Below are positions 8,485-31,129 of a stretch of 64,000 nucleotides of DNA, in pieces. Source of the DNA: Pirellulaceae bacterium (lineage in GTDB: Bacteria > Planctomycetota > Planctomycetia > Pirellulales > Pirellulaceae); NCBI GenBank assembly GCA_026004795.1, contig BPJV01000001.1, positions 969,501-1,033,500 of the forward strand, read 5' to 3'. Numbering within the stretch: position 1 is the stretch's first letter; each line of letters opens with the position of its first letter. Made by a program: the position numbers and the translations under genes. The notes below the pieces were generated by a model. The model was not told the origin of the DNA, made no database searches, and worked only from the letters and a program-made list of their open reading frames with translations.

Positions 8485-8595
8485 CGGAGTCTCCTTTTCC
8501 TTTCGGTCTATTCTGACATAAGGTGACCCACTGTCTACCAAACTCGGGAAGGTTCACACCTCCCAGACTTTCATGAAAAAAATCCGACAAAAAAC

Positions 8596-8624
8596 TTGAC
8601 TTGAGGGCGCCGATCTGCACAATA
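8596..8624 (+). promoter_or_regulatory. sigma70-like promoter of cassette copy A
   Basis: TTGACT (8596-8601), 17-base spacer, ACAATA (8619-8624). The same boxes and spacing recur in copy B at 21816-21844, while sequence immediately upstream differs. It would drive the lipoprotein/DUF1559 genes. Confidence 0.6.
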
Positions 8625-8692
8625 ACGGATGAAGTCGCTCGACTGCTCTTGTCCTCGTCTTGCCCGACCAGTCAGCGACATGGTGATAGCAT

Positions 8693-8710
8693 AGGAGGGC
8701 CGCCCCATGC
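8693..8710 (+). promoter_or_regulatory. ribosome binding site and candidate true ATG of the lipoprotein, copy A
   Basis: GGAGGG at 8693-8698 lies 8 bases before ATG 8707, a far better initiation site than the in-frame GTG at 8756. From this ATG the heptamer tract puts translation one frame away from the lipoprotein, giving a 26-residue dead-end peptide. Confidence 0.55.
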
Positions 8711-8715
8711 GCCCC

Positions 8716-8750
8716 TACTCACTACTCACTACTCACTACTCACTACTCAC
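8716..8750 (+). repeat. heptanucleotide tract TACTCAC x5 (copy A)
   Basis: Five perfect TACTCAC units lie between ATG 8707 and the lipoprotein frame (49 bases from ATG to the in-frame GTG 8756, one base too many). Loss of one unit would join the ATG to the lipoprotein frame and create a signal sequence ending in the lipobox LVGC. A 7-base unit shifts frame at each gain or loss, the classic design of a slipped-strand switch. Confidence 0.8.
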
Positions 8751-8755
8751 TCGCC

Positions 8756-9346
8756 GTGAGTCTTCTCTTGCTGGTAGGTTGCGGTGAGATGAATGCGGTG
8801 GGATTTTCTTCGGCCAGCGACCACGGGCCGTTTACCCAACGCGTTGCCGCGGGCCATGATTCTTCCATTGATTCTCGCCCGGCGGAGTCGGTCTTCGATG
8901 TTGGGATCGTGCTGGCCGATCGGCCGGGTTACCTGTGTGTGCCTTTCGAACGAGTCGGTTTGTCACCGGCAGCGCAGGTCGAGCATCTGCGCGCTTCGTG
9001 CGAGTGCATCGATCCTCGCGTCGTCAGCATCTTCAGCGATCGCGGCGACGTCGTCCCAGCGTTGTTGCTGGAGTTCGTTCCCGATCCGGCCTCCGATGCT
9101 GACGATGCTTCGGCGGGTCTTGCGGCTGCTCTGGACACCGGAGGTGGCTTCGGCGAGTTACCGGATCTAGGGGTTGCCTCATCGTCGTCTGAGCAACCGG
9201 TTGGATCGGCTCCTTCGCAGGCCACTCGGTCGCCCCGCGGTCAGAACTTGGGGGTGATCGTTGGCGTGGCTTTGTCCGACGGTGCGACCCATCAGTTTCG
9301 CGTCGACCTGCTGCACACGACTTTGCACCGGGAGGACCAGCGATGA
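8756..9346 (+). CDS. CxC lipoprotein (DUF1573-like), frame interrupted at its start, copy A
   Basis: A 196-residue frame starting at GTG inside a hydrophobic run LLLLVGC, a lipobox whose Cys would carry lipid. Residues 47-90 (FDVGIVLADRPG... then ASCECIDPRVV, C82/C84) resemble DUF1573, in which a DxGxV strand is followed by an S-C-x-C motif. The domain is thus related to the DUF1573-like proteins in the cargo of both cassettes. As written the signal peptide is too short: the well-placed ATG 8707 lies out of frame across a 5x heptamer tract. The protein is therefore either switched off or phase-variable. Copy B (21977) is nearly identical except for the middle-to-C-terminal linker, which is shorter there. 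Confidence 0.65.
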   Translation: MSLLLLVGCGEMNAVGFSSASDHGPFTQRVAAGHDSSIDSRPAESVFDVGIVLADRPGYLCVPFERVGLSPAAQVEHLRASCECIDPRVVSIFSDRGDVVPALLLEFVPDPASDADDASAGLAAALDTGGGFGELPDLGVASSSSEQPVGSAPSQATRSPRGQNLGVIVGVALSDGATHQFRVDLLHTTLHREDQR

Positions 9347-9398
9347 GAGCTTGGATTCCTCAGTCAAGGATTGTCCTCCGTCGTTCCCTGTCCATTGT

Positions 9399-9482
9399 GC
9401 CCCGTCAGTCCCTGCCGGGAACGCACAATGTAGCCCGTCAGTCCCTGCCGGGACCGCACAATGTAGTCCGTCAGTCCCTCCC
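9399..9482 (+). repeat. short tandem repeat with CAGTCCCTGCCGGG core
   Basis: Three imperfect units of roughly 30 bases built on GTCAGTCCCTGCCGGGA...GCACAATGTAG. Copy B has two units at about 22555-22612. The same core in inverted form recurs near 14231 and 24185 (GGCAGGGACTGCCGGG), so this belongs to a dispersed repeat family. Confidence 0.6.
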
Positions 9483-9612
9483 GAGCCTCGCTTGCAGAAT
9501 TCAACTGCTCGTACCGTGTGTTTCGGCTGCGGTCGAATGCCCACGTCGCATGGTTGGCCCTCCCCGCTCGCGCCCTCCCCGCTCGGGCCCTCCCCGCTCG
9601 CATTACTCGCGA

Positions 9613-9632
9613 CCCTCCCGCAAGCGGGAGGG
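9613..9632. repeat. GC hairpin of dispersed repeat family (inverted orientation)
   Basis: CCCTCCCGC-AA-GCGGGAGGG forms a perfect 9-bp stem, preceded by CCTCCCCGCTCGCATTACTC. In the opposite orientation this is the motif that flanks the IS66 insertion point. It could terminate or stabilise the lipoprotein transcript just before the DUF1559 gene. Confidence 0.55.
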
Positions 9633-9681
9633 TGGGGTGTGGATACACGGGGCAGGTAGGGCGGCTGTTGCATCGTGCGGT

Positions 9682-10719
9682 ATGGTTCTGGAGTGCAGGC
9701 GGGAGGTTACGAAGTTGCGGCGTGGTATGACGCTGGTGGAACTGCTGGTGGTGATCGCCATCATCGGGGTGCTCATCGGGCTGTTGTTGCCGGCGGTGCA
9801 TGCGGTGCGGGAAGCGGCCAGGCGGATGCAGTGCCAGTCGAACTTGAAGCAACTGGCCCTGGCGGCGCACAACTTCGAATCGGCTCACCAGCGTTTTCCC
9901 TCGGGCGGCTGGGGCTACCAGTGGCAGGGCTTTGCGGACATCAGCTCGCCGGCCGGCCAGCCCGGTGCGTGGCCCTACTCGCTGTTGCCGTTCGTCGAGC
10001 AATCGGCGCTGTACCACTTGGGTTCGTATCACTCGGATCCCGATCAGCGCAACGCCGACTTGCACCAGCGCGTCGGCTCGCCGGTGCCGATCTACAACTG
10101 TCCCAGCCGTCGTGGCGGCGAGCCGCTGGAGTTCAAACCGCAGTGCCAGAGCTGTCCGCGTCCGATCGGGGTGACCGAGCCGCTGCCGTCGACCGTGCGG
10201 GGCGACTACGCGGTCAACGCGGGCGACGGGGCGCCCGATCCGCAGCAACTGATCAGTTGGCCATTGAACTTTCCTGGTCCGGACGATGTCCAGGAAGCGA
10301 ATCGGTTGGCTCGCACGCGGCAGTGGCCCAAACCGCCGGCCGATTGGTCGGGGATCAGTTGGCTGGCCCGCAGCGTGCGGATGGCTCAGGTAACCGACGG
10401 CACCAGTCACACGTTTTTGTTTGGCGAAAAGTACGTGATGCGGGACGCGTATCACACGGGATTCGACTGGGGCGACAACGAGCCGCTGTATGGCGGGTTC
10501 AACAACGACAATCACCGCAGCACGCATCCGCATTGGCCTTTGAAGCGGGATACGGTGGGTGAGATATCGATCGGCAGTTTCGGGTCGGCTCATTCGACCG
10601 GCGTCAACTTTGCCATGGTCGACGGCAGCGTGCACCATGTTCCGTACGAGATCGATCAACAGGTCTATCGCTGGCTCGGCAACCGCCACGACGGCCAGAG
10701 CGTGGAGCTACCAGAGTAA
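9682..10719 (+). CDS. DUF1559 pseudopilin-like protein, copy A
   Basis: A 345-residue DUF1559 (SBP_bac_10-like) protein, a family expanded in planctomycetes. The start at 9682 gives a type IV pilin-like leader ending in KLRRG, followed by MTLVELLVVIAIIGVLIGLLLPAV, the N-methylation/cleavage signature. Next come the usual CQSNLKQLALAAHNF, a periplasmic body with NCPSRRGG, and the C-terminal FAMVDGSVHHV segment. The frame is open a further 113 codons upstream through repeats, which I regard as untranslated. The gene is practically identical to copy B at 22876, so the duplication is recent or maintained by gene conversion. The family's role (minor pseudopilin, surface assembly) is not established. 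The final ELPE-stop codons are the first unit of the 20-bp array that follows. Confidence 0.9.
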   Translation: MVLECRREVTKLRRGMTLVELLVVIAIIGVLIGLLLPAVHAVREAARRMQCQSNLKQLALAAHNFESAHQRFPSGGWGYQWQGFADISSPAGQPGAWPYSLLPFVEQSALYHLGSYHSDPDQRNADLHQRVGSPVPIYNCPSRRGGEPLEFKPQCQSCPRPIGVTEPLPSTVRGDYAVNAGDGAPDPQQLISWPLNFPGPDDVQEANRLARTRQWPKPPADWSGISWLARSVRMAQVTDGTSHTFLFGEKYVMRDAYHTGFDWGDNEPLYGGFNNDNHRSTHPHWPLKRDTVGEISIGSFGSAHSTGVNFAMVDGSVHHVPYEIDQQVYRWLGNRHDGQSVELPE

Positions 10720-10860
10720 ACATCGAGCTACCAGAGTGAATATCAAGCTACCAGAGTGAATATCAAGCTACCAGAGTGAATATCAAGCTACCAGAGTGAA
10801 TATCGAGCTACCAGAGTGAATATCAAGCTACGAGCGTGAGCATCGAGCTACGAGCTTGAA
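10701..10860 (+). repeat. 20-bp tandem array, 8 units, copy A
   Basis: Units of AGCTACCAGAGTGAATATCA type with period exactly 20; the array degenerates up to about 11040. It starts inside the last codons of the DUF1559 gene. Each unit carries a TGA, and because 20 is not a multiple of 3 the stops fall in all frames. There are no spacers, so it is not CRISPR. Copy B has about five units. Confidence 0.85.
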
Positions 10861-11166
10861 CATCTCGGTGCAGCGTGAGCGCTTCGAGCTACCCGCATGA
10901 GCGTGGAGCTACGAGATGGAGCGTGGAGGCGGAGAGCGAACATGGAGGTGCAGAGTGGGCATGGGGATTCCTGAATGAGCTTCGAGATTGGTGCATAAGC
11001 GTCGAGGTATTTCGATATGTGCATCCGGAGAAACAATCAACCCCACCCTCCCCCTGGGAGGGTCGCGAGTAATGCGTGAGTTTGCGGTAAGCGTGTGTGA
11101 GGGATTTTGGGGGAACGGGTAGGCTGGAGGTGGGTTTGATCCTCTAGCCGAAAGGAGCTCCGTTCT

Positions 11167-11673
11167 ATGGAACAATTGACTGCACATGACGAGCGTCTTG
11201 CTGCAACTAATGATTCTACTGCAAGTAGCGATTCGCTTACTGCAACGTACGAGCGTCTTACTGCAACGAACGATCGGCTTTTCGAGCAGGCTGTGGAAGC
11301 GTTCAGGCAGTGGAGGGGGGCGAAGTCGGGACGCGGGCGGATTCCAGATGAACTGTGGGATTTGGCGTGCCAGGTCGCTCAAAGGCATGGCGTCGCGAAG
11401 ACCGCCGGGTCGCTGAAGCTCGATTACTATACCCTGCAAAGACGGATGGACGGTCGCGGTGGGGCACGGGGTAAGGCCGCTGACGCTCGGAAAAAGCGTC
11501 GTCGTGGCGGTGCTGGGGCATTCGTGGACCTGGCGCCGATAACGAATGTCAGTCCGCAGGCGGAATGCGAATTGGAATTCGAAAACGGCCGCGGGACCAA
11601 GCTGACCCTGCGTTGGAAGGGAAACATGCCGCCCGACCTGGCCACGCTCAGCCAACTGGTCCGCCAGGAGTAG
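11167..11673 (+). CDS. tnpA: IS66-family accessory protein TnpA
   Basis: A 168-residue protein in the first position of the IS66 operon, with AAAGGAGC upstream of the ATG. The N-terminus has a short internal repeat (ERL-A/T-A-T-N-D, in register at both DNA and protein level) that may form a coiled coil. A basic helical region with LDYYTLQRRMDGRGG follows and would bind DNA, then the C-terminal LTLRWKGNMPPDLATLSQLVR. IS66 TnpA proteins are needed for transposition, but their exact role is unsettled. The stop is 5 bases before tnpB, indicating translational coupling. Confidence 0.85.
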   Translation: MEQLTAHDERLAATNDSTASSDSLTATYERLTATNDRLFEQAVEAFRQWRGAKSGRGRIPDELWDLACQVAQRHGVAKTAGSLKLDYYTLQRRMDGRGGARGKAADARKKRRRGGAGAFVDLAPITNVSPQAECELEFENGRGTKLTLRWKGNMPPDLATLSQLVRQE

Positions 11674-11678
11674 CGGCC

Positions 11679-12044
11679 ATGCTGCAGATTACCCCGCACA
11701 TGCGCATTTTGGTGGCGGTCGAGCCGGCCGATTTTCGCAAGGGCATCGATGGGTTGGCGCGTCTGTGCAAGGACGTGCTCGATGAAGATCCCTGGGAAGG
11801 CGCCGTGTTCGTGTTCCGCAACCGCCGGGGCACGGCCATCAAGGTGCTGATGTACGACGGCCAGGGGTTTTGGCTGTGCCAGAAACGACTGTCGGCCGGA
11901 CGCTTCCGGCACTGGCCCGTCGGCAGCAACGACGCGGCAGCCGCATCGCTGGCCGCCCATCAATTGTTGGTCCTGTTGGCTGCGGGTAATCCCGAGCAAA
12001 CCGAAGCTCCGGAGGACTGGCGCCCGGTGCGGCGCGGCACCTAG
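11679..12044 (+). CDS. tnpB: IS66-family accessory protein TnpB (IS66 Orf2-like)
   Basis: A 121-residue protein matching the IS66 Orf2 family: MRILVAVEPADFRKGIDGLA, then EDPWEGAVFVFRNRRGTAIKVLMYDGQGFWLCQKRLSAGRF, its best conserved stretch. The length is standard. The ATG at 11679 follows the tnpA stop by 5 bases. Its function in transposition is accessory and not biochemically defined. Confidence 0.93.
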   Translation: MLQITPHMRILVAVEPADFRKGIDGLARLCKDVLDEDPWEGAVFVFRNRRGTAIKVLMYDGQGFWLCQKRLSAGRFRHWPVGSNDAAAASLAAHQLLVLLAAGNPEQTEAPEDWRPVRRGT

Positions 12045-12246
12045 CGGCCAGTGGCAGTCCGCGGCGACGGCAATTTTTTCGAAAATTGACGTTCTACCTT
12101 TTGGCCGAAATGGGATAAAACGATGGCGGCTTTGGCGGCTGCCCAGTTTGCTGTGCGGCTCAGTGGCCCGTGCGGCTCCGTAGCTGCAGCAAGAAGCGGT
12201 TTTCAACGATTCGCGTGCTCCGACTTGCAAATCGGTGGACGTCCCG

Positions 12247-13965
12247 ATGGCTGGCTCGGCAAAACGGAAACGATCATCGAAGCCTGACGTGCAAGTGGTC
12301 GACATCACGATCGACGACTTGAACCGCCTGCTGGACCGGATCGAGCAGCGGAAGTTGGAAGAGACGGACTACGACCTGCTACTGCAGGTGCTCCGGTCGT
12401 ACGACTACGTAATGGGTCTGTTGCGCGACGACCACATCCGGCTGAATCGACTCAAGCGCCTGCTGTTCGGCGGCACCGAGACGCTGAAGAAAGTGGTCGG
12501 GGGCGGCAAGTCGGACGACCAGGCGGCGGCCGAGGGGGCTGAGTCGGACGGCGATGCCCCGTCGGAACCAACGCCGCCGGAGGCGCCCGATCAGGCCGCT
12601 CAGGCCGGACATGGACGCAACGGGGCCGACCAATACAAGGCGGCGCGCGAGGTTCTGGTCGAGCACGATCGATTGCGGCCCGACGACATCTGCCCGGAGT
12701 GCGGTGGCGGCAAGCTCTACGAGATCGGTCCGCGGGTGATCGTGCGGGTCAGCGGCCAACCGCCGTTGGAAGCGACGGTTTATCGGCTGCAGCGCCTGCG
12801 GTGCAAGGTGTGCGGGCAGTTGTTCCACGCCGAGACGCCGCCGGATGCCCAGGGACGCAAGTACGACGAGACGGCCGCAGCGATGATTGCCCTGTTGAAA
12901 TATGGGTCGGGGATGCCTTTCAACCGACTGGCACGGCTGGAGGAGGCGTTGGGCACGCCCCTCCCGCCGTCGACGCAGTGGCAAATCGTTTCCACCTACC
13001 TGCCCATCCCCAAGCTGGTTTACCACGCCTTGATCCATGAGGTATCGCACTGGGATCTGTATCACAACGACGACACGACGATCAAGATCCTGAATAAGCT
13101 GGGCTTGGAAAAACCGGATTGCGGCTCAGGTCGAACTCGCACCGGCACGTTCACTTCGACGGTGGTCGCCCGCCGAGATGGGGTCGATGCTGCGCTCTTT
13201 TTCAGCGGGCATCGGCATGCGGGCGAGAACCTGGCGGCGGTGCTACGCGATCGACCGGAAGAACTGGCTGCGCCGATCCAGATGTGCGATGCGTTGTCGC
13301 GGAACATGACCGATGAGTTGCGAACGATCGTGGCCCACTGTCTGGCCCACGCGCGGCGGAACTTCGTGGACCTGGTCGACGTGTTCCCCGAAGAGACGGA
13401 GTATGTGCTGAGGCAGCTCAGTCACGTCTACCGCGTGGATGCCGAGGCGCGGCGCAAGGGACTGTCTCCCCATAAGCGGCTGGCGTTGCACCGTGCCAAG
13501 AGCCAGCGGGTGATGGACGGGCTGCACAAATGGCTGATTCGGCAATTGGACGACCGGCGGGTGGAGCCGAATTCAGCGCTAGGGCAAGCGATCAACTACA
13601 TGCTCAAGCACTGGGAGCGGCTGACCCAGTTCTTGCGAGTTCCCGGCGCACCGCTGGACAACAACGTGGCCGAGCGCGCCCTGAAGAAGTCGATTCTGCA
13701 CCGCAAGAACTCGCTCTACTATCGCTCAGCCAGCGGAGCGGAGGCGGGGGACGTCTACATGACGCTGATCCATACGTGCGAATTGAACCGCATCAATCCT
13801 TATCAGTATCTGGTAGCGCTCCTTCGCCACGCCGACGACGTCGCAACACGGCCTGAAGCCTGGCTCCCTTGGAACTACGCTCGGCGTCAAACCGAGCTTG
13901 CCCAGGCGGGTCCATCTTCTGAAGCGTCTGAACCGAGCCCTGAGCAAGCCCCAGCACGGCGCTAG
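12247..13965 (+). CDS. tnpC: IS66-family DDE transposase TnpC
   Basis: A 572-residue transposase that would cut and join the element ends. From the N-terminus there is a Leu-rich helix, an acidic/Pro linker, a zinc finger (CPEC near 149-152, CKVC near 186-189) and the IS66 catalytic domain. Candidate catalytic acidic residues are in HNDDTT (about 276), MCDALS (about 348) and NNVAERALK (about 476). The C-terminal MTLIHTCELNRINPYQYL segment is diagnostic of IS66. ATG 12247 is preferred to GTG 12235. About 200 bases separate it from tnpB. The frame is intact, so the element may be active. Confidence 0.94.
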   Translation: MAGSAKRKRSSKPDVQVVDITIDDLNRLLDRIEQRKLEETDYDLLLQVLRSYDYVMGLLRDDHIRLNRLKRLLFGGTETLKKVVGGGKSDDQAAAEGAESDGDAPSEPTPPEAPDQAAQAGHGRNGADQYKAAREVLVEHDRLRPDDICPECGGGKLYEIGPRVIVRVSGQPPLEATVYRLQRLRCKVCGQLFHAETPPDAQGRKYDETAAAMIALLKYGSGMPFNRLARLEEALGTPLPPSTQWQIVSTYLPIPKLVYHALIHEVSHWDLYHNDDTTIKILNKLGLEKPDCGSGRTRTGTFTSTVVARRDGVDAALFFSGHRHAGENLAAVLRDRPEELAAPIQMCDALSRNMTDELRTIVAHCLAHARRNFVDLVDVFPEETEYVLRQLSHVYRVDAEARRKGLSPHKRLALHRAKSQRVMDGLHKWLIRQLDDRRVEPNSALGQAINYMLKHWERLTQFLRVPGAPLDNNVAERALKKSILHRKNSLYYRSASGAEAGDVYMTLIHTCELNRINPYQYLVALLRHADDVATRPEAWLPWNYARRQTELAQAGPSSEASEPSPEQAPARR

Positions 13966-14057
13966 CTCCCTCCATCATCTACCCCACTCAGCCGCCCCCC
14001 GCATTCGATCCCAAATTTTTTTCAGCCCGCACGCTTACCGCAAACTCACAGTAATGC

Positions 14058-14227
14058 GAGCGGGGAGGGCCAAGCGGGGAGGGCCAAGCGGGGAGGGCCA
14101 AGCGGGGAGGGCCAAGCGGGGAGGGCCAAGCGGGGAGGGCCAAGCGGGGAGGGCCAAGCGGGGAGGGCCAAGCGGGGAGGGCCCGAGCGGAAAGGGCCCG
14201 ATCGGGGAGGGCCAAGCGGGAAGGGCC
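14058..14227 (+). repeat. 14-bp tandem array, about 12 units
   Basis: GCGGGGAGGGCCAA repeated about nine times nearly perfectly, followed by three degenerate units. It begins directly after the right target duplication of IS66. The equivalent place in copy B (24155-24181) has only two units, so the array expanded in copy A. The G-rich strand (runs of GGGG and GGG) could form G-quadruplexes. Confidence 0.85.
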
Positions 14228-14285
14228 GTTCCGGCAGGGACTGCCGGGCCACTATAGTGCCACGCCAGTCCCTGGCGTGACCCCA
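14228..14285 (+). repeat. CCGGCAGGGACTGCCGG / CACGCCAGTCCCTGGCGTG palindromes, copy A
   Basis: Two adjacent imperfect palindromes, GGCAGGGACTGCC and CGCCAGTCCCTGGCG, found again in copy B at about 24182-24236. They belong to the dispersed repeat family also seen near 9400. They could act as a terminator or transcript-end structure upstream of the GT2 gene. Confidence 0.5.
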
Positions 14286-14448
14286 AAACCCAATTTCACC
14301 AATCAAATTTCACAAAACACTTGAATGAACAAAAATCAAGCGCGACCCCAAACACCAAACCAGCGCCCACTAACACACTCGTGAACGGAATGGACCACCG
14401 ACGCGACCGATTCCAACCAACATGGCCTGAGTCACCACGGCGACGAAC

Positions 14449-16548
14449 ATGAGCACGTCCACCAAACAAACGCAAACGCCCGCACCGCATCGCGCCGCGT
14501 CCGATTCGATGGCCGCTCGGTCGCCCGTCGAGTCGGTGCGCGTCGATCGGCCGCATGCAGCAAGTGACGTCGACGCACGCGCGACCAACGAACCGGCCTC
14601 CGGGGACGGCACCGAGACCAGTGTGCTGCTGACCGTCCTGATGCCCTGCTTGAACGAATCACGCACGTTGACCGCGTGCATCGCTGAAGCCCACCAGGCC
14701 TGTCGCGCTGCCGGATTGCGCGATGTGCTTGCAGCCAACGCTCAAGAGTTGGGGGCTAATGCGAAGAAGGGAAGTGAACACGAGGCCGAACCACGCTCGG
14801 CGGACGTCGATCCGCCCAGCGAGATGCCAGCGTACGAAATCCTGATCGCCGACAATGGCAGCACGGACGATTCGGTTGCGGTGGCCGAGGCGGCTGGAGC
14901 GCGGGTGGTGCACGTGGAGGAGAAGGGTTACGGCGCCGCGTTGCGAGGCGGCATCGCCGCGGCGCGGGGCAAGTACGTCGTGATGGCTGACAGCGACTGC
15001 AGTTACAACTTTGGCGACATTCCTCGCTTCCTGGCCAAATTGCAGCAGGGATTCGACTTGGTGGTCGGCAATCGGTTTGCCGGCGGGATCGAGCCGGGTG
15101 CGATGCCCTGGCATCACCGCTGGATCGGCAACCCGGTGCTGTCAGGGCTGGGGCGGCTGCTGTACCGCACGCCCATTCGCGACTGGCACTGCGGGCTGCG
15201 CGCCTTCGATCGGCAGAAGATATTGGGGCTGGGCTTAGGATCCTCTGGCATGGAGTTCGCCAGCGAGATGATCTTGCGCGCCTCGCAGGCACGTTTAGCC
15301 ATGGCCGAGCTCCCCACCACCCTCCGCCCCGACTGCCGCGATCGACGACCGCACCTCAGGTCCATGCGCGATGGGCTACGGCATCTGCGACTATTGGGAC
15401 AAGCCAAGATCGCCAATAAACCAAAGATACAGCAATCGTTAGGTCACAGGCTAACGCAAAAACGTTGGCGACTATATTCTATGACTCTGTTGCCAATGGT
15501 GGCGATTTGCTTGTTTGCATTGTTAAGCAGCAGAGAAAACGGAGCAAAAGTAGAGTTTTCCCGGCCATTGGATTTGACCGAATCTAGAAAGCACGGTCAT
15601 GTACGTACCCGTCCTGCGGGGTTCGATGGCGTAACATCATATGACTTCGGATTAGTGCTTTGTGGTACCCGCCCAGAGCATGAGTTTCGTCTCACCAATC
15701 GAACTGGCCGTGAATTGCAGATAGCCGGAGTCCGCAGTTCTTGTTCCTGTACCGTGGCATCAATTTCTCGGGAGATTTGGCTGCCGGATGACGAATTACG
15801 AGTTCGAGTACAGTACAAGTCCCCCAGTGTTCTGGCCGACGACTTTCAGAAGGTCGAGCTGCATTTTGCAGATCCCTTGCTGGCTCCACTGGCCTTACGC
15901 GTTGCTGCTAAAGTCCGTCCTCTATTGGCCATCGTGCCGCAGCAATTTCCAGAAATCGCTTGCAGTAGAGGAGAACAACTGACGCATAGATTCGAGATCA
16001 AGAATTTTGGCAGTCAACTGATCGACGACATTGAAGTTATTTCACCGAGCGCAGTTGTCACCGGTGTCGACCTAAAGCCGGTAAATCCTCCGTCCAAGAA
16101 CGACCTTGCCCGTCAGAAATGGCGTGTTGCAGTGCATATGAATTTTGCGAACATCTCGTTTGGCAGTCATCAGGTTCCCATCGATATACTCCCGAAAAAC
16201 GGGACGCCATTAAAAACAAATATTCCTATTTACGTAAGGTCGCCAATTAGTGTTGTGCCCAGCCAATTCTTTTTTGGACGCATGGACGATAGTTCGAGCA
16301 AAGGCAAAAGCGTTAGCATCCGCGTTCTATTCAACGGCGCACGATGTCCATTGGAGCCAGACGCGTTGACGATTGAGAAAGTTCCTGGTATCCAGTTTTT
16401 GGTGACGCGTATAAAAGACATTGGCTGGGAAGTTACTGCAACAATTGTTTCCAAACCCAGTCCATCATCGTTATCCACAAAGATAAGGCTGCGACTGAAT
16501 GGCGGCGAGGTAATTGAAGAAAATGTACCAATTCGTATTTATCAATGA
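14449..16548 (+). CDS. GT2 polyprenyl-phosphate glycosyltransferase fused in frame to a DUF1573-like protein
   Basis: A 699-residue open frame that looks like two genes read as one. Residues 59-320 are a DPM1-like GT2 domain: VLMPCLNESRTL, ILIADNGSTDDS, DSD at 181-183, GNRFAGGIEPGAMPWHHRW and RDWHCGLRAF. It would put a sugar on a polyprenyl phosphate. The C-terminal membrane part usual for this subfamily is missing. From about residue 345 (ATG 15481) a signal-like segment MTLLPMVAICLFALL starts a DUF1573-like domain, with YDFGLVLCG and S-C-S-C at about 431-434. The switch at about 15400 coincides with the border between sequence shared with copy B and divergent cargo. The DUF1573 part may be translated separately from ATG 15481. 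Residues 1-57 are low-complexity. Confidence 0.7.
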   Translation: MSTSTKQTQTPAPHRAASDSMAARSPVESVRVDRPHAASDVDARATNEPASGDGTETSVLLTVLMPCLNESRTLTACIAEAHQACRAAGLRDVLAANAQELGANAKKGSEHEAEPRSADVDPPSEMPAYEILIADNGSTDDSVAVAEAAGARVVHVEEKGYGAALRGGIAAARGKYVVMADSDCSYNFGDIPRFLAKLQQGFDLVVGNRFAGGIEPGAMPWHHRWIGNPVLSGLGRLLYRTPIRDWHCGLRAFDRQKILGLGLGSSGMEFASEMILRASQARLAMAELPTTLRPDCRDRRPHLRSMRDGLRHLRLLGQAKIANKPKIQQSLGHRLTQKRWRLYSMTLLPMVAICLFALLSSRENGAKVEFSRPLDLTESRKHGHVRTRPAGFDGVTSYDFGLVLCGTRPEHEFRLTNRTGRELQIAGVRSSCSCTVASISREIWLPDDELRVRVQYKSPSVLADDFQKVELHFADPLLAPLALRVAAKVRPLLAIVPQQFPEIACSRGEQLTHRFEIKNFGSQLIDDIEVISPSAVVTGVDLKPVNPPSKNDLARQKWRVAVHMNFANISFGSHQVPIDILPKNGTPLKTNIPIYVRSPISVVPSQFFFGRMDDSSSKGKSVSIRVLFNGARCPLEPDALTIEKVPGIQFLVTRIKDIGWEVTATIVSKPSPSSLSTKIRLRLNGGEVIEENVPIRIYQ

Positions 16549-16555
16549 TAAGAAA

Positions 16556-21971: not shown

Positions 21972-21976
21972 TCGCC

Positions 21977-22830: not shown

Positions 22831-22875
22831 GTGTGGATACACGGGGCAGGTAGGGCGGCTGTTGCATCGTGCGGT

Positions 22876-23913: not shown

Positions 23914-24000
23914 ACATCGAGCTACCAGAGTGAATATCAAGCTACGAGAGTGAACATCGAGGTACGAGAGTGAACATCGACGTGCAGAGTGAACATCGAG
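23897..24000 (+). repeat. 20-bp tandem array, about 5 units, copy B
   Basis: The same GCTACCAGAGTGAA[C/T]ATC[G/A]A unit as copy A with fewer copies, degenerating to about 24080. It overlaps the last codons of the DUF1559 gene. Confidence 0.8.
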
Positions 24001-24146
24001 GTGCAGCGTAGAGCGTGGAGCTACCAGATGAGCCTGGAGCTACGAGATGAGATGGCGGTGCAGAGCTACTGAAGATTGGTGAATAAGCGTCGAGGTATTT
24101 CAATGGGCATATCAAGAAACCCCACCCTCCCCCTGGGAGGGTCGCG

Positions 24147-24154
24147 AGTAATGC
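24147..24154. other. empty IS66 target site
   Basis: AGTAATGC within GGGTCGCGAGTAATGCGAGCGGGGAGGGC. This is exactly the sequence that is split and duplicated by IS66 in copy A (11068 and 14050). It shows the ancestral, uninterrupted arrangement. Confidence 0.9.
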
Positions 24155-24431
24155 GAGCGGGGAGGGCTCGAGCGGGGAGGGCCGTTCCGGCAGGGACTGC
24201 CGGGCCACTATAGTACCACGCCAGTCCCTGGCGTGATCCAAATAGTTGCACGCCAGTCCTGGCGTGACCCCAAACACGATTTCACAAACCAATCATTTCA
24301 ACATTGGAATGAAGAAGAATCAAGCAGCAACCCAAACACCAAACCAGCGCCCACTAACACACTTTGAACGGAATGGACCACCGACACGACCGATTTCAAC
24401 CAACATGGCCCGAGTCACCATGGCAACGCAC

Positions 24432-25454
24432 ATGAGCACGTCCACCAAACAAACGCAACGCCGCACCGCACCGCGCCGCGTCCGATTCGACGGCCGGCCG
24501 CTCGCCCGTCGAGCCGGTGCGCATCGATCCGCCGCACGGTGCGGCCAACGTCGACGCACGCGCCACCAACGAACCGGCCTCCGGGGACGGTACCCCGACC
24601 AGTGTGCTGCTGACCGTCCTGATGCCCTGCTTGAACGAATCGCGCACGTTGGCCGCTTGCATCGCCGAAGCCCACCAGGCGTGTCGCGCTGCCGGACTGC
24701 GCGATGCCTTGCGCCAACGCTCAGAGTTGGGGGCTGACGCGAAAAAGCCGATGCGAACGCGAGGCTCGAATCATCCTCGGCGGACGTCGAGCCGCCCAGC
24801 GAGTTGCCTGCGTACGAAATCCTGATCGCCGACAACGGCAGCACGGACGACTCGGTTGCGGTGGCCGAGGCGGCTGGAGCGCGGGTGGTGCAGGTGGAAG
24901 AGAAGGGCTACGGCGCCGCATTGCGAGGCGGCATCGCGGCGGCGCGTGGCAAGTACGTCGTGATGGCTGACAGCGACTGCAGTTACAACTTTGGCGACAT
25001 CCCTCGCTTCCTGGCCAAATTGGAGGAGGGATTCGATTTGGTGGTCGGCAATCGGTTTGCCGGCGGGATCGAGCCGGGTGCGATGCCCTGGCATCACCGC
25101 TGGATCGGCAACCCGGTGCTATCCGGCCTGGGGCGGCTGCTGTACCGCACGCCCATTCGCGACTGGCACTGTGGGCTGCGCGCCTTCGATCGGCAGAAGG
25201 TATTGGGGTTGGGCTTACAATGCTCCGGCATGGAGTTCGCCAGCGAGATGATCCTGCGCGCCTCGCAGGCACGTCTAGCCATGGCCGAACTCCCCACCCC
25301 CCTCCGCCCCGACGGCAGAGACCGACGACCCCACCTCACGGTCCGTTCGCGATGGGTTGAGGCATTTGAGACTGTTGGTGACTCACGTTCGCTGAGAGCG
25401 ACCGAATGTCCGTCAGAGCTCAAGCTGTGGCCAGTGAATCCAGCGGATTCTTAG
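24432..25454 (+). pseudogene. GT2 polyprenyl-phosphate glycosyltransferase, multiply frameshifted, copy B
   Basis: The counterpart of the GT2 domain at 14449, starting with the same ATG context. Two bases are missing near 24448-24453, which moves the frame. TSVLLTVLMPCLNESRTL lies in a second frame (24517-24825). Indels near 24705-24730 move ILIADNGSTDDS onward into a third frame (longest open piece 24804-25454). An extra base near 25338 derails the end, where removal would restore HLRSVRDGLRHLRLL and a stop at 25393. DSD and the other GT2 motifs remain readable. As in copy A the C-terminal membrane part is absent. This copy cannot make a full GT2 protein. Confidence 0.8.
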
Positions 25455-25523
25455 AAGGCGTATTCAGATCAAGTGTATTGGTGTTGCTGTTAACTGCTTG
25501 TTTTCGATGGAGGTTGATTGACC

Positions 25524-25925
25524 ATGTTCGTTCGTACAATCGCTGTGTTAGGTGTTATTCTTGGGGGAATAGCATGGTGGGAAACGCTGCCACAGACAAC
25601 CGCGCAAGTTGACACGAGTTTTGAGGCTGGTTGGTTCTCCGTTTGTGTCGCGCCGGGCGCAAATACTTGCCCGGCACCGTGCTTTAGTTCCTGCGTGGCG
25701 GGTGGACGGGGTGGCGTTTTTTGCACTCAGATTGGTGCTCCCGGTACTGGGCCCGGAACATATGGGAACTGCGTATTTTCGATCTTGCCATGGAATTCCT
25801 GCGCAACGGTCCCAGTATGTTTGCCGGGCGTTGCGACGCCTCCCGCGTGTCCGGCAATGCTTGCTAACGGTTCGTGTCCCCAAGTAGCATGTGGAGCACC
25901 GGTGTTTATGTTCGAATGCCCGTAG
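25524..25925 (+). CDS. secreted 12-cysteine peptide, copy B
   Basis: A 133-residue exported protein with GGAGG upstream of its ATG. A signal peptide (residues 1 to about 28, ending near TTAQ) precedes a mature part with 12 cysteines in a Gly/Pro/Ala-rich background (NTCPAPCFSSCVAGG, SCPQVACG). It ends in ECP. It does not align with the copy A peptide apart from the number of cysteines, the position in the cassette and the Cys-Pro end. A GG pair (VAGGRGG) follows the fourth cysteine, so leader cleavage as in copy A is not obvious. It is probably disulfide-bonded outside the cell; the function is unknown. Confidence 0.65.
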   Translation: MFVRTIAVLGVILGGIAWWETLPQTTAQVDTSFEAGWFSVCVAPGANTCPAPCFSSCVAGGRGGVFCTQIGAPGTGPGTYGNCVFSILPWNSCATVPVCLPGVATPPACPAMLANGSCPQVACGAPVFMFECP

Positions 25926-25952
25926 TATCTGCAACCGACTGGATTACTCGTT

Positions 25953-27398
25953 ATGCGACGGAGCACTCGACTCGCGAGATACTTCTCTCGCCCCGAGTGG
26001 CGGGACAAGCTCCCTACGGGTGCTCCGTGCCTCACCCATGTTTCGTCCGTTCTGATTTTTCTGTTCCTAGGTTGCGCAACCAGCAATGAGGACGCTCATG
26101 CACTTTTGTTCACCTTTTTCGCGGCTTGCGAAAATGGCCTTTACATACGCCTTAATGACGTCAACCAACGCGAGCTCGGTCTTTCGAAGGCAGGTTTTCT
26201 TCTCGATCCGAGCGCTGTTCTTACGATTGCTCTTGGTATGTTCTTGATTCATCCTACCCTCGTTGCGGCTGACGAGCTATCCGTCGACCAGCAGCGTCTG
26301 CGTGTTGCGCGCGCCAAACAAATCCTTTCTTCAGTTGGCGTCGTGTATTCGATCAAAGAGCATTGGGAGGGTGCACCTGACAGTGCTGAACAATTCACTT
26401 TGATTGTGAATCCTACATCCTTCCAACTCGCAAGAGGCATCGATCTTTCCAAACAACTCGGTAAACTTGTTCCTATAAATCACTCAAACCTGCAAACCAT
26501 CGCCTCGAAAGGTTTTTTTTACACAGGACACATGCATCCAAAGAGCGAGTTCTCGTCCTTTAATTTTAAGACAGAGCTCCCAGGCGAGTACATTTATTAT
26601 TACACCACTGTTCCCGACCGTTTGATGCGTTTGATTCACACACCGATATTTATATCGGTTCCTGCACTAATACCTCGCGAAGAAGCCCGATCACCGCTTT
26701 GGCTCATCGCAGATGAATCAATTGACTGGGAACTGTTGCCTGGATCTGACGAATTGTTCTACATTCCCGTCAGGTCGGTCACGACGAAGACGAAACAGGG
26801 GGCGGATGTTTCGTTTCGCACCATCCTAGTATTTTCGTTGCACCCCTCTCGGAGCGGAGTTCCGTCAGAAGTATGGATGACAGCGGAATGGAATTTTCAA
26901 GGCGAGAAAGCGATTATACCGCTGGAGTATTGCGGTCAATATTGGCGTTTTAAAGACTGGAAGCCTGGACCCGCTGGATTGCAGTACCCTACTTTCCAGG
27001 TTGAGGTTAATGAATTAACTAGTATAACCATGGAGGACATGCTCGATGAACAAACGGGGGCACTGCGGCAGCTGCTATCTGGCGGTTTTCGCCCCGCTGT
27101 TAACCCGAACTTACGGAGAGAGATTCACGTTAAAGAATGGACCTCTATATCTCCAACTGCTGATCTTTTCCTATCCGCTGAAGAAGGTACGATCATCAGC
27201 GATGTAGACACAGCCGATTTTTACATCAAAGGGATCGATCGCCAGGAAAGCGACAAATTACTGGGGCTTGCTGAGCTTGAGGAACTCCCTCAAACTAGGC
27301 ATGGGAACGGTCGCCTTTTGGCGACTATCGCTGGAGCGTTTGTCGCCGTGTCCTTGCTCCTGTATTGGTATCGTCAGCGCAATCTGCAACGTGGCTAG
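25953..27398 (+). CDS. exported protein with C-terminal membrane anchor, start uncertain
   Basis: An open frame of 481 codons. The first about 85 residues look like repeat-derived, untranslated sequence. The credible protein begins near the hydrophobic segment VLTIALGMFLIHPTLVAADE (ATG 26238 or a non-ATG start upstream). The body is beta-rich, with no recognised domain, and ends in a membrane helix (LLATIAGAFVAVSLLLYWY) and a basic tail. This is the same plan as the 17873 protein of copy A. It is followed after 8 bases by the C39-like gene, so they are co-transcribed. The DNA is visibly more AT-rich than the flanking cassette arms. Confidence 0.6.
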   Translation: MRRSTRLARYFSRPEWRDKLPTGAPCLTHVSSVLIFLFLGCATSNEDAHALLFTFFAACENGLYIRLNDVNQRELGLSKAGFLLDPSAVLTIALGMFLIHPTLVAADELSVDQQRLRVARAKQILSSVGVVYSIKEHWEGAPDSAEQFTLIVNPTSFQLARGIDLSKQLGKLVPINHSNLQTIASKGFFYTGHMHPKSEFSSFNFKTELPGEYIYYYTTVPDRLMRLIHTPIFISVPALIPREEARSPLWLIADESIDWELLPGSDELFYIPVRSVTTKTKQGADVSFRTILVFSLHPSRSGVPSEVWMTAEWNFQGEKAIIPLEYCGQYWRFKDWKPGPAGLQYPTFQVEVNELTSITMEDMLDEQTGALRQLLSGGFRPAVNPNLRREIHVKEWTSISPTADLFLSAEEGTIISDVDTADFYIKGIDRQESDKLLGLAELEELPQTRHGNGRLLATIAGAFVAVSLLLYWYRQRNLQRG

Positions 27399-27406
27399 GT
27401 GCCAGA

Positions 27407-28594
27407 ATGAATCCAAAACATCTCTTGAGCGTTTTGTTGGTGGTGCTGTTTGTCGCCGAAACCCGCACAGCACATTCGGAGGATTGGTATTCCGGAAGAA
27501 ACTGTGTGGATATCGCGATTGTGCGATTCGCGAAATCTGTAGGAAAGCCGATAGATCAGTCAATTTATGACTCCGTGCTGAGCGAGCTAGCGCTTTCGCC
27601 TACAAGCCCAACACGAACTGTGGCCGAAACAAAGAGGATATTGCAAAGGCTTGGGATTCCATGTATCGCGTACTCCTCGTCCTGCAGTGCAAGCGAGAGC
27701 ATACCCGAGCGAGGAATCGTGTTTTGCCACCTTCCGAAGGTGGGTGGGCACTGTGTTTTTGTCCGTCGAAGTCCTGAAGGAGTAGTCATACACGACAAAG
27801 AAGTGCAGTTGCTTACGCTCGACGACTGGTATCGGTTGGGTAAGGTGATTGTTGTCATTCCTCGTCAGGCGTATCAGTGGAGTCGCGCGAAATATTTTTC
27901 GGTGTGGATCGCGCAAGGTTTCGCTGTGGCCTTGCTATGCGGGGTGGCATTTAACATTGGTTTCTCTCTGTGGAAACGAGCGCGTATTTTCGTGCTGTCA
28001 ACGCTTGTACTGCATTGCTTAATAGGCGGATGTGAATCACCCTCAGTGCCCGAGCATAATCAAAAGCGACAAGTCGTCGACCTGGGAGTGGTTTCTCAGG
28101 ACATTGTAGAGCACGAGTGTACAATCCATACCAGCCAAGAAGCGATCGTAGACAGGGTAGTTAAAGGCTGTTCATGCTTATCTGTAGGATCGGTCGAAGG
28201 AACTCGAGTGACACCCGAGAAACCGTTGTCATTTCAATGCAGGCTGGATATTTCTGGTAAGACCGGTGATTTCATTGAACGCTTAGATATCTATTGGAAA
28301 GGGCAGGAAGAGCCTAACACAATTATGTTTACCGGATTCGCCACGAGGCCTCCACTGACCACTCCTGAGCCAGTAATAGTTCTGGTGCTGAATGGGCATC
28401 CACGGGAAGCAGTGGTTGAGGCTCGCCTAACGCACGCCTTCGACGAACACCCTACGATTGTTGGCTGTGACCTCGTCGATGCAGATGGTAGTCCGGTAGC
28501 CTCCCTGGCGATTACAAACACTGTCAGCAAGAGTCGATGGCTCTCTCCTGGCAAGGGGCCGTACACTACACGGAAAAACTTGCATGCCGCTTGA
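27407..28594 (+). CDS. C39-like peptidase fused to a DUF1573-like domain, copy B
   Basis: A 395-residue frame with two modules. A signal peptide (residues 1-24) precedes a C39-like domain with C33 (GRNCVDIA), H115 (GGHCVFV) and D130 (VVIHDKE). A membrane helix (IAQGFAVALLCGVAFNIGFSLW), a short basic turn and a second hydrophobic segment ending LIGGC (lipobox-like) lead to a DUF1573-like domain with DLGVV and GCSC. In copy A these are separate genes, with DUF1573 attached to GT2. After about residue 378 the frame leaves the family: the equivalent of the copy A sequence WRVAVHM continues in another frame (28537-28974, WQGAVHY). A single indel at about 28545-28560 therefore probably truncates the protein. 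Confidence 0.65.
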   Translation: MNPKHLLSVLLVVLFVAETRTAHSEDWYSGRNCVDIAIVRFAKSVGKPIDQSIYDSVLSELALSPTSPTRTVAETKRILQRLGIPCIAYSSSCSASESIPERGIVFCHLPKVGGHCVFVRRSPEGVVIHDKEVQLLTLDDWYRLGKVIVVIPRQAYQWSRAKYFSVWIAQGFAVALLCGVAFNIGFSLWKRARIFVLSTLVLHCLIGGCESPSVPEHNQKRQVVDLGVVSQDIVEHECTIHTSQEAIVDRVVKGCSCLSVGSVEGTRVTPEKPLSFQCRLDISGKTGDFIERLDIYWKGQEEPNTIMFTGFATRPPLTTPEPVIVLVLNGHPREAVVEARLTHAFDEHPTIVGCDLVDADGSPVASLAITNTVSKSRWLSPGKGPYTTRKNLHAA

Positions 28595-28974
28595 AGGACA
28601 ACTGGGGTCTCGATCGTCCCGTCGACGTTCCTGTAGTCCTCCATTGGAGCGAACCTCGAATCGATAACATTATCACCGTCCGGTTATTGCCTGTCCCCGC
28701 CCTGGAATTTGCATCAGACAATGCCTGGTTGTGTTTTAATCCTGATTGTCCCCGAATTGCAGATTTTGCTTTAAAGGTGCACGACCCGAGCGTTTCGCAT
28801 GATGCAATTACGATCGAATTCAGTGATCCGCGTTTACAATGCGCCAGCATCGACTTTGATCGCGGTTTAGTGCATACTGAGTTTCACGGTTCCCCCGACA
28901 CTGAACTAATATGTTCGGGAGTACTTAAGTTTCGAGGCAAGGAAATAGATCGCATTCGCGTTTTTATTAACTAA
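28537..28974 (+). CDS. C-terminal continuation of the copy B DUF1573-like protein (other frame)
   Basis: A 145-codon frame overlapping the previous one by 58 bases. Its beginning (WQGAVHYTEKL...VDVPVVLHW) parallels residues of the copy A DUF1573-like protein (WRVAVHMNF...VPIDILP), so it is most likely the separated C-terminal third of one gene. The Met used as start is an internal codon without a ribosome binding site. It ends 4 bases before the next gene. If the frameshift is a sequencing error, the complete product would be about 520 residues. Confidence 0.5.
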   Translation: MALSWQGAVHYTEKLACRLKDNWGLDRPVDVPVVLHWSEPRIDNIITVRLLPVPALEFASDNAWLCFNPDCPRIADFALKVHDPSVSHDAITIEFSDPRLQCASIDFDRGLVHTEFHGSPDTELICSGVLKFRGKEIDRIRVFIN

Positions 28975-28978
28975 CCTG

Positions 28979-31015
28979 ATGCGGGCACTGCAAAAATCTA
29001 CACCATGCTTGGTTATGTTATGGATCGCAAGTATCATATTCTTGCTTATTGCCGCTTGGCCGATGCTGCGGCGTTTTCCTAATAATGACGAGACGGCTCA
29101 TCTCGCGACAAGTTACTTTGTGCGCGAAATCGGTCGGTTTGATTTATATCGCGTTAATCCACCTTTTATGTCCATCGTTGTATCTTTTTTCCTCGACGAC
29201 GAACTGAATGATAGTTTCGATTGGGAATGGGTGGATGGAATCGGGATTGCGAACGCAAGATTTGAGTTTTTCTTAGCTGCTCCCTGCCTGCGGCGTCACG
29301 GTTTATCAATTGCCCAGTATTTTTTTCGGCCGCGTTTGGCTTGGTTTCTTGTGTCGAGTTGTTCAGGCATTCTCTTACTGCTGGTTCTTTGCCGCGCCGG
29401 AGGCTTTGGATACCTTGCAACGTTGACTGCATTTGTCTACTTCCTAACCTGGCCAGACTTGCTCGCTCATGCAACCTCACTTTCTCCGGATGTCATGTCC
29501 GCGATCACCGGTTTTCTACCCGTAATTGCCGGTCTCCAATACATCGTGACACGGACTAGAGCTAATGCTTGTTGGTTCGGTGTAGCGCTGGGATTCGCAT
29601 TGCTCACCAAGTTCACTTGGTTGGTTGGAGCGGCTGCATCCGCAGCAACAGTTCTAGTTCTAAGCATGAAGGAAGCTAGAACCGAGGGTGACTGCTATTT
29701 GTTCAAGTCGATTTGGCACGGCGTACTTGTGGTAATGATCGCTATTCTGACCCTCTCGGCGGGTTACGGATTTCAGCACATACTCACTCCTTTGGGCGAT
29801 ATGGAGTTTGGTAGTGAAATGCTGGTAGGTGAAAAGCCAAATAGAACAGGAAATCGACTTAACCGATTTAGGGGTACGATCTTCGAAGACATTCCAGTGC
29901 CACTACCACGCGATTACGTCTATGGATTGGATACCTTGCAGGTTGAATCTGAGATCGGCTATTGGTCGTTTCTCCATGGGGAGTGGAAGCAGGGCACTTG
30001 GCCCCATTATTATTTGATGACGACGCTTCATAAAACATCCGAGGGATTACTGTTCGCAGCCCTGTTCGGCGCACTAGTTTTTTTGATTGGCTTGTATCGG
30101 GGAATGCTGGACGAGAATATTCGGAATCTGTTGTTGCTTACGGCTATCCCTGCATGCACAATTTTCATTGTGCTTAGCATAAAGGGGGGCTTCAATCATC
30201 ACCACCGGTACGTGCTGATGATCTATCCGCCCATGTTCCTGTTCGCCGCCCTGGTGGCCCATCCGCTTACGCGCGAGGTATGGAGGAAGCGGGAGGCAGG
30301 AGAGGAAAGTGAGCTGAAAAGGTTGAGGGCTGAATGCGGCGGTGGGGAACAGGAGGCAACAGAGGGAACGGAGGTGGATGGGGAGGGAAACGCAGAGGGG
30401 ACAGGGAGAGCACAGAGAGCAGAGATGGGTGGGGAGGTTGAGTTGGGGCGAGGTTGGTTGGCGGGCGTAGGTGGCTGGGTGCGGGGGTTGCACTGGAATG
30501 AGTGGCTGGCCATCGTGCTGGTGACGCTGTCGGCCGCCTCGAGCCTAAGGGTGCATCCGTATTACACCAGCTACTTCAATACACTCTCCGGTGGCCCGGA
30601 AAACGGATGGCGGTTGCTGAACCATTCGAACATCGATTGGGGCCAAGACATGCTGGAGGTGGACGAATGGATCAAGGAGCATCCGCAGTGCCGGCCGCTG
30701 AGGTTCGAACTCGATTATTGGAATTTCGGTGGCGAGCTGTTTGGGTTGGAGCCGCGCCGTCCACCCATATTGCCGACCGGTGCGTCGGTGGATCGAAGCG
30801 CGGCGAATGGTCGAGCAGACCGAGTGGTGGATCATCAGCGTGAAGACGTTGTACAACAAGCCGGGACAGAGTGGACTGGAGTACCTGCAGCAGCTCGAGC
30901 CGGTCGATCGCATCGCCTACGCCTACCACGTCTACCGCATCGATCCGCTGCCCGAGGCGAGCGTGGAGGTATCGGAATAAGCTTCGACATTCGGAATAAG
31001 CTTCGACATTGGTGA
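28979..31015 (+). CDS. GT-C membrane glycosyltransferase (GT39-like), copy B, 3' frameshift
   Basis: A 678-residue frame. Helix 1 (LVMLWIASIIFLLIAAWPML) is followed by NDE (D37-E38), the GT-C acidic pair, then about eight further helices, a Glu-rich low-complexity loop (30285-30465) and the conserved HSNIDWGQDMLEVDEWI domain. Up to about 30184 the DNA differs from copy A; after that it is nearly identical. Compared with copy A there is one extra base within GATCGAAGCG (30791-30800). After ASVD this frame therefore leaves the family, and the true end (ARRMVEQTEWWIISVKTLYNK) runs in another frame to a stop at 30978. It is probably the acceptor-modifying partner of the GT2 enzyme. Confidence 0.75.
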   Translation: MRALQKSTPCLVMLWIASIIFLLIAAWPMLRRFPNNDETAHLATSYFVREIGRFDLYRVNPPFMSIVVSFFLDDELNDSFDWEWVDGIGIANARFEFFLAAPCLRRHGLSIAQYFFRPRLAWFLVSSCSGILLLLVLCRAGGFGYLATLTAFVYFLTWPDLLAHATSLSPDVMSAITGFLPVIAGLQYIVTRTRANACWFGVALGFALLTKFTWLVGAAASAATVLVLSMKEARTEGDCYLFKSIWHGVLVVMIAILTLSAGYGFQHILTPLGDMEFGSEMLVGEKPNRTGNRLNRFRGTIFEDIPVPLPRDYVYGLDTLQVESEIGYWSFLHGEWKQGTWPHYYLMTTLHKTSEGLLFAALFGALVFLIGLYRGMLDENIRNLLLLTAIPACTIFIVLSIKGGFNHHHRYVLMIYPPMFLFAALVAHPLTREVWRKREAGEESELKRLRAECGGGEQEATEGTEVDGEGNAEGTGRAQRAEMGGEVELGRGWLAGVGGWVRGLHWNEWLAIVLVTLSAASSLRVHPYYTSYFNTLSGGPENGWRLLNHSNIDWGQDMLEVDEWIKEHPQCRPLRFELDYWNFGGELFGLEPRRPPILPTGASVDRSAANGRADRVVDHQREDVVQQAGTEWTGVPAAARAGRSHRLRLPRLPHRSAARGERGGIGISFDIRNKLRHW

Positions 31016-31100: not shown

Positions 31101-31129
31101 GGCTCGAGCCGAGTGGGCACGGGCGGTCG

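Follow-up and report, generated by a model that had tools for sequence, protein, structure and literature searches.

Two cassettes in the analysed window, A (8579-21133) and B (21799-30970), are two of seven dispersed copies of one planctomycete operon, which probably form a recombining family whose ends are reassorted with diversifying centres. The window is the whole stretch of 64,000 nucleotides, C1:969501-1033500 of a 5.59-Mb genome in 17 contigs. The other five copies were located elsewhere in the genome by a search with the conserved ends, or arms. The copies have defined boundaries, are mosaic, have exchanged tracts and carry arms under constraint, and the cassette layout and the reassortment are very probably real. 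Ectopic homologous recombination (gene conversion and crossing over), acting in the left genes for a lipoprotein, a DUF1559 protein and a glycosyltransferase (GT2) and in the 3' half of a second glycosyltransferase gene (GT-C), would keep the ends alike and join them to different centres. The centres themselves would then have been exchanged or acquired.

Shared arms and divergent centres of cassettes A and B

Self-BLAST of the window gave four matches between the left arms of A and B (8579-9095/21799-22316, 93%; 9198-9639/22353-22761, 86%; 9608-10854/22802-24046, 97%; 14199-15397/24154-25378, 88%), which agrees with the shared left arms described in the initial annotation. The right arms had been described as near-identical, and this did not hold, since they are only 76-87% alike (20156-20411/30185-30419, 76%; 20453-21133/30290-30970, 87%). 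The cargo was correctly seen as unalignable and AT-richer. No alignment of at least 90 bp at E 1e-8 was found between the two centres, and a single 74-bp alignment (19934-20007/29963-30036) reached 82%. The GC content of the centre is 49.9% in A, compared with 65.6% in the left GT2 and 62.5% in the right arm, and 50.0% in B, compared with 66.7% and 61.2%. The kinds of genes in the two centres do correspond, as had been noted, but their order differs (DUF1573, C39 peptidase, Cys-rich protein and anchored protein in A; Cys-rich protein, anchored protein and C39-like region plus DUF1573 in B), and the counterparts are mostly without sequence similarity.

Chance was set aside as the source of the likeness on the self-BLAST E values. 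Ordinary tandem duplication was also set aside as the origin of A and B, because the centres would then be alike.

Seven copies and their edges

The remaining copies were found at C2:723589-734360, C3:72223-77997, C12:1756-9678 (minus strand), C7:257953-268173 (minus strand) and up to position 6585 of C10, where the right arm alone was found behind an apparent insertion. Beside the C10 remnant (L054 8471-9948), a phage-integrase-like open reading frame (ORF) is followed by an IS91-like ORF (names by eye). Across the genome the GT2 arm matched at six places (91-100%) and the right arm gave seven long matches (87-100%). C2 and C12 have the same centre (95.4% over 5853 bp), and the other pairs showed no centre alignment of at least 90 bp at E 1e-8, except in the part of GT-C adjoining the right arm. 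Further cassettes with the same arms and new cargo therefore do exist, five in this genome and one each in two other genomes.

All six left arms end after the same GT2 codon, the last of the motif ...RDGLRH; in B the frame is shifted and the DNA position is unchanged. In the 14 pairs compared (C2-C12 was omitted, as its cargo is common to both), the identity in 30 columns fell from 0.72-0.97 to 0.29-0.59 across 40 columns at one place. The GT2 genes of two relatives in other genomes, L071 and L127, likewise end soon after RDGxRH, and therefore we place the left edge where a conserved gene core stops and do not regard it as a recombinase site. On the right the edge falls within GT-C, at about residue 290 in A, C2, C3 and C12 and about residue 370 in B, and is less sharp, at about 45 codons at the resolution used. 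The expected abruptness was found within 40 columns on the left and to a lesser degree on the right. The cassettes have an O-antigen-like layout, with conserved flanks, an abrupt left edge, a compositionally different centre and this less sharp right edge.

The two parts of GT-C differ strongly in their conservation. Among A, C2, C3 and C12 the C-terminal parts show 96-98% identity; those of B and C7, in which the frames change near the end, are 72-73% identical to these four and 81% to each other. The N-terminal parts are 21-43% identical between copies with unlike centres (full matrix) and are no closer within the genome than to other genomes, where the best values were 28-45%. In six family genes, with the second GT-C piece used for A, the GC content at third codon positions (GC3) of the C-terminal part exceeds that of the N-terminal part by 14.6 to 32.3 points; in 37 other GT-C genes the difference is -19.6 to +9.3 points. 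The same GC3 break is seen in L071 and L127, and it is therefore not peculiar to this assembly.

This last observation bears on an assembly artefact, in which chimeric joins at repeats in a metagenome-type assembly would have produced the pattern. A contig end is no more than about 10 kb away from C7, C10 and C12, and B and C7 are 98-99% alike in the right arm yet change frame at different places. However, A and B lie inside a 1.16-Mb contig, and the two other genomes combine the arms and the GC3 break with unlike centres. Most arm pairs also differ by synonymous differences per site (pS) of about 0.15-0.25, too much for collapsed copies, and we consider an artefact highly improbable.

A short direct repeat of the left arm of A (10973-11076) recurs at the right end of B, C2, C3, C7, C10 and C12, and before GT2 in B (24073-24183) and C7; the copy 3' of GT-C in B is at 30994-31118. 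The cassette could thus be a mobile element that moves as a unit, with the repeats before GT2 and after GT-C as its ends. The dispersed copies, the common repeat that flanks GT2, centre and GT-C in B and C7, and the patchy spread of the right-arm protein (3 of 396 genomes, with the own genome included and one match weak at 38%) are all consistent with this. On the other hand, in the ORF lists we saw no transposase or recombinase that the copies have in common, the insertion elements differ and three of four interrupt GT-C, and half of the direct repeat is a genome-wide repeat. Movement as a unit is quite unlikely on this balance.

Separate histories of ends and centres

The left arms of C2 and C3 share an identical tract of 556 bp, which is preceded by columns with 6-9 mismatches per 100 and followed by columns with 3-14. 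Despite this tract the centres of C2 and C3 are unrelated, and the centre of C2 instead matches that of C12. C2, C3 and C12 all lack DUF1559 and have an identical 222-bp stretch at that place, though the centre of C3 differs. B and C7 are alike at 97.7% over 4826 columns in a plus-strand block at 30174-34950 (about 100% past 32 kb), which holds the right arm, a sulfotransferase gene (PF13469) and a 697-aa ORF without a Pfam match. The block extends from the edge of the centre to 34950, where the DNA becomes unlike; outside it the left arms are 90% alike and the centres unlike. These three cases demonstrate that ends and centres have separate histories. The pairwise homoplasy index (PHI) test of the left arm gave p 0.0005 (51 sites).

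The initial annotation had read the layout as a system that swaps or diversifies cargo by recombination in the arms. The additional cassettes with the same arms and other centres, and the differing histories of arms and centres, support this reading in part; the centres may have moved and swapping may be adaptive, and no dedicated swapping machinery was seen in the ORF lists.

Several results weigh against a recombining family with reassorted ends. The PHI test of the right arm was not significant (p 0.20, 36 sites), and no donor was found for any centre. The approximately unbiased (AU) test did not reject one clade of the GT-C N-terminal parts of this genome (p 0.243); the free tree of these parts splits the own copies. 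Between C2 and C12 the centre genes (0.035-0.128 synonymous differences per site) have lower values than the arms (0.149 for GT2 and 0.112-0.336 for GT-C windows). This points towards separate histories as well, but the ranges overlap and the difference is only a tendency. C7 has no Cys-rich candidate, and C10 has retained the right arm alone. GT-C is unbroken in two of seven copies (C3 and C12), neither of which is A or B. Frame changes occur in GT-C of A, once each in GT2 and GT-C of B, and once, at another place, in C7, and there are insertions in C2, C7 and C10 (in C7 and C10 the types were assigned by eye). These frame changes and insertions may be real decay or sequencing error.

A plausible but less favoured possibility is that the centres never moved, i.e., that the copies are seven old paralogous operons with rapidly evolving middle genes, whose ends were overwritten by ectopic gene conversion (concerted evolution). 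It overlaps with the reassortment reading, and the sole difference is that the centres do not change place. A left boundary that falls where the conserved GT2 core naturally stops, as it also does in L071 and L127, the conversion-like C2/C3 tract and the single origin of N-terminal parts left standing by the AU test would all be expected from it. However, the B/C7 block extends 4 kb beyond the right arm into genes and ends in unrelated DNA, which therefore requires more than conversion between homologous arms alone, and the C2/C12 centre genes tend to differ less than the arms.

The broken genes could also mean that the cassettes are decaying leftovers, amplified by insertion sequences (IS) and now functionless. 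As assembled, GT-C or GT2 is broken in five of seven copies, and A, C2, C7 and C10 carry insertion elements. The arms, however, evolve under constraint. In the GT2 arm, all ten pairs of the five in-frame copies gave pS 0.155-0.219 and dN/dS 0.17-0.23. In the right arm of five in-frame copies, the nonsynonymous differences per site (pN) are 0.011-0.020 compared with pS 0.142-0.245, and pN was below pS in all six gene comparisons between C2 and C12. Functionless decay is accordingly unlikely, and reassortment of constrained ends with diversifying centres remains our preferred reading.

Relatives in other genomes

DNA of the GT2 arm matched in 12 of 60 related genomes, the own genome included, and the best match elsewhere was 71% in G001. 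Among 14 other genomes of the genus, three matched, with G001 again the best and the other two over 123-168 bases only. The right-arm protein was found at E 1e-25 in 3 of 396 genomes drawn from the order, namely the own genome, G314 (66%) and G213 (38%, weak). Judged by coordinates, the G314 match and L071 are one record. L127 lies on a contig of G001, a genome that is absent among the 396-genome matches listed and was probably not drawn. G001 and G314 hold one family cassette each (L127 and L071, respectively), and both genomes are fragmented and 79-86% complete.

The arm DNA of L071 and L127 is alike in six pieces at 68-83%, and the lipoproteins at only 33%. Their Cys-rich, anchored and DUF1573 proteins were without detectable similarity (E 0.49 or worse). 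In the tree of GT-C C-terminal parts, the own copies, L071 and L127 form one set of eight (100/100), within which L071 and L127 are sisters (100/100), nested as a pair on very short branches among the own copies. In the tree of N-terminal parts L071 and L127 are apart, and L071 groups with C12 (96/64). The anchored protein of A, used as a query in the 60 genomes, gave one weak match beyond the own genome. In G040, from another family of the order, there were 19 GT-C profile matches with pieces counted, perhaps another expanded set.

The Cys-rich product and its partners

The order lipoprotein, DUF1559, GT2, Cys-rich exported protein, anchored exported protein, C39 (not always present), DUF1573 and GT-C recurs, in part, in planctomycete GT-C loci. 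We compared 53 loci with a GT-C match, made up of six own cassettes, 26 loci, L127 and 20 regions. By one automatic filter, a Cys-rich exported candidate lies on the GT-C strand in 34 of the 53 loci and on the opposite strand in one of 53, and the link between the two genes is therefore not due to chance. The candidate is present in the own copies A, B, C2, C3 and C12.

GT2 enzymes of this type make lipid-linked sugars, and GT-C enzymes transfer such sugars outside the cytoplasm; the GT2 and GT-C of the cassette presumably resemble these enzymes. C39 peptidases cleave after Gly-Gly. The centres in five of seven copies encode an exported, presumably disulfide-rich protein, along with an anchored exported protein and a DUF1573 protein. 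Judged from these neighbours, the C39 peptidase (in A, C2 and C12, and weakly in B) might trim the Cys-rich precursor, and GT2 and GT-C might supply a lipid-linked sugar and attach it outside the cytoplasm. The product would thus be disulfide-bonded, cleaved and glycosylated, and as a first guess it may be a diversifying surface or secreted interaction protein.

The C39 domain (PF03412) scored above the 22-bit Pfam cut-off in A (46.3 bits), C2 (33.5) and C12 (35.9), and there were seven C39 matches in the genome. In B there was no Pfam match at 0.01, no place among the genome matches at 0.001 and no leave-one-out match. The hhalign comparison of its C39-like region with the C39 set was weak (E 1.8e-4, 48% probability), and a PDB sequence search with that region gave nothing at E 1. 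A Gly-Gly precedes the first Cys in 6 of 10 loci with C39 and in 3 of 24 without it (Fisher p 0.009), loci without a candidate being left aside (4 with C39 and 15 without). When three near-duplicates were dropped and B was moved, p became 0.053 or 0.15, which joins the points above that count against the proposed reading, and the C39/Gly-Gly link is therefore only a lead. No ABC domain was found at 0.01 among the 20 window proteins scanned.

In the Pfam and NCBIfam libraries, which cover known domains only, Pfam matched neither the Cys-rich protein of A nor either of the anchored proteins in A and B, and NCBIfam matched none of the Cys-rich proteins in A, B and C2. The structure model of the 12-Cys protein was unusable (predicted local distance difference test score, pLDDT, 42.6). 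For the anchored protein of A (pLDDT 50.7), the best Foldseek matches were DUF1329 and LolA at E about 1e-3. Because this model is weak and no match was at or below 0.001 by the tool's count, a LolA-like fold is a lead only.

Leave-one-out profiles of the anchored proteins linked A (1.4e-5) and C2 (0.0026), with no match at E 1 for C3, L071, L082 and L127. The profile that finds the anchored protein of A did not find that of B. In the genome, the anchored-protein profile gave eight matches, five in cassettes, one in the L128 cluster and two weak; the profile itself includes four of the five cassette matches and L128, and misses unlike relatives. Switching from a silent archive of centres was set aside, as no archive and no array among these eight matches was seen in a search made insensitive by a profile that overlooks unlike centres.

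A second family in the genome (clusters L129, L130 and L131) has GT-C and DUF1559 alike at 90-96%. L131 (G000:C11, 9968-15861) holds three Cys-rich genes in a row, each near a gene for an anchored-type protein, and these anchored-type proteins are 26-32% identical to one another (with the first pair taken from L129). Two of the Cys-rich genes are alike (95.8%) only in a 118-bp block from just before the start codon to just past the signal peptide, with pS 0.04 in this leader block compared with 0.62, near saturation, in the mature part. The second family thus repeats, at the scale of a gene, the combination of an alike leader and an unlike product.

Comparison with known systems

The cassette is of a known kind, with a variable centre and recombining flanks, and is unusual in being multi-copy in one genome and in what its centre encodes. 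O-antigen and capsule loci have conserved GC-richer flanks, an unrelated AT-richer centre and homologous recombination in the flanks. The cassettes resemble them in flanks and centre, but one genome has seven of them, and what the centre encodes is not a sugar polymer pathway but a Cys-rich secreted protein with its partners. Concerted evolution by ectopic gene conversion leaves homogenised segments and tracts between dispersed copies, as the cassettes show as well. Unlike in that process, homogenisation of the cassettes stops at fixed edges, and the centres are without detectable DNA similarity except in C2/C12.

Polymorphic toxin systems (PMC3482391) are reported likewise to join variable and conserved parts by recombination and to have an exported product. 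The cassettes differ in having no toxin domain recognised by the known-domain libraries, their variable part carries no fused, conserved delivery domain, and no immunity gene was recognised. Glycocins and other double-glycine peptides with C39 processing (PMC12457901, PMC6363468) are reported to be alike in a Cys-rich precursor with glycosyltransferases; a Gly-Gly-like site and C39 each occur in some copies of the cassette. In contrast to those peptides, the cassette precursor has a signal-peptide-like segment, C39 is a separate protein and no ABC transporter was seen in the cassettes. A further difference is that GT2 and GT-C of the cassettes look like what we take to be lipid-linked sugar enzymes.

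In titles and abstract openings, the literature searched held nothing on the cassette and no paper pairing DUF1573 with planctomycetes; DUF1559 was mentioned once each in two planctomycete genome papers. We tentatively propose, though it is rather doubtful, that the cassettes are a multi-locus diversification scheme for secreted disulfide-rich proteins, in which new centres (the Cys-rich product, its anchored partner, the processing peptidase and the N-terminal half of GT-C) would be installed behind standard expression and glycosylation genes. If this is true, secreted Cys-rich proteins with dedicated partners are a widespread class in planctomycetes that was not met in those titles and abstract openings, and in one lineage recombination between dispersed operons diversifies such proteins. 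The abrupt switch within GT-C would then show which of its halves has to fit the substrate and which is general.

Genes of cassettes A and B and other features of the window

All features given here for A and B are on the plus strand. The left arm of A (8579-15384, from self-BLAST and alignment) comprises the promoter region, the CxC lipoprotein, DUF1559, arrays and the GT2 core. The lipoprotein ORF (8756-9346, 196 aa, CxC motif) had no Pfam match at 0.01 and no NCBIfam match at 0.1, and has relatives in L071 and L127 (the profile includes L071 and A). It is followed by the DUF1559 or pilin-like gene (9343-10719; PF07596 1.8e-46, N_methyl 2.6e-06), with DNA copies in B (99%) and C7 (97%), and by a 20-bp tandem array of 7.3 copies (10706-10851). 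The arm is interrupted at about 11075-13969 by an IS66-type insertion (transposase 12235-13965), which is 88-90% alike to one in C2. The GT2 core lies at 14449-15384, and its final arm codon is the H of ...RDGLRH.

The centre of A begins with a DUF1573 region in frame with GT2 (15385-16548; PF07610 4.9e-14), followed by the C39 peptidase (16514-17179; PF03412 4.8e-12; signal and C-terminal membrane segment by eye), the exported 12-Cys protein (17179-17637), in which a WGG motif precedes the Cys-rich part, and the exported, C-terminally anchored protein (17873-18922, by eye), whose weak model resembles LolA/DUF1329. GT-C of A is in two pieces, an N-terminal one (18973-19497) with a frame change before 19500 and the remainder (19340-21256), in which the right arm begins at about 19886 in the comparison with C3, or at 20156 in that with B, and extends to 21133.

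In B the left arm (21799-25377) has its GT2 split over two ORFs in different frames. The centre encodes an exported 12-Cys protein (25518-25925), an exported, C-terminally anchored protein of 481 aa (25953-27398, by eye) with no sequence link to its counterpart in A, and a weak C39-like region fused to DUF1573 (27365-28594), for which the DUF1573 score of 23.4 bits is under the Pfam cut-off of 26.1. GT-C of B (28979-31015) contains the right arm at 30290-30970, with older similarity from 30185 and the frame change near the C-terminus. An in-frame repeat of about 57 residues in the GT-C genes of L052, L051 and the window varies in copy number among the cassettes.

Directly past B there is a 204-bp tandem repeat (31117-31758, 3.1 copies, 95% matches), with matching DNA in the C7 copy. 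Elsewhere in the window, a prephenate dehydratase-like ORF (49198-49944, by eye) stops early at 248 aa, perhaps by another frame change. A further duplication was seen at 58025-60700, where 58025-58496 and 59835-60299 are 84% alike, with weaker pieces beyond.

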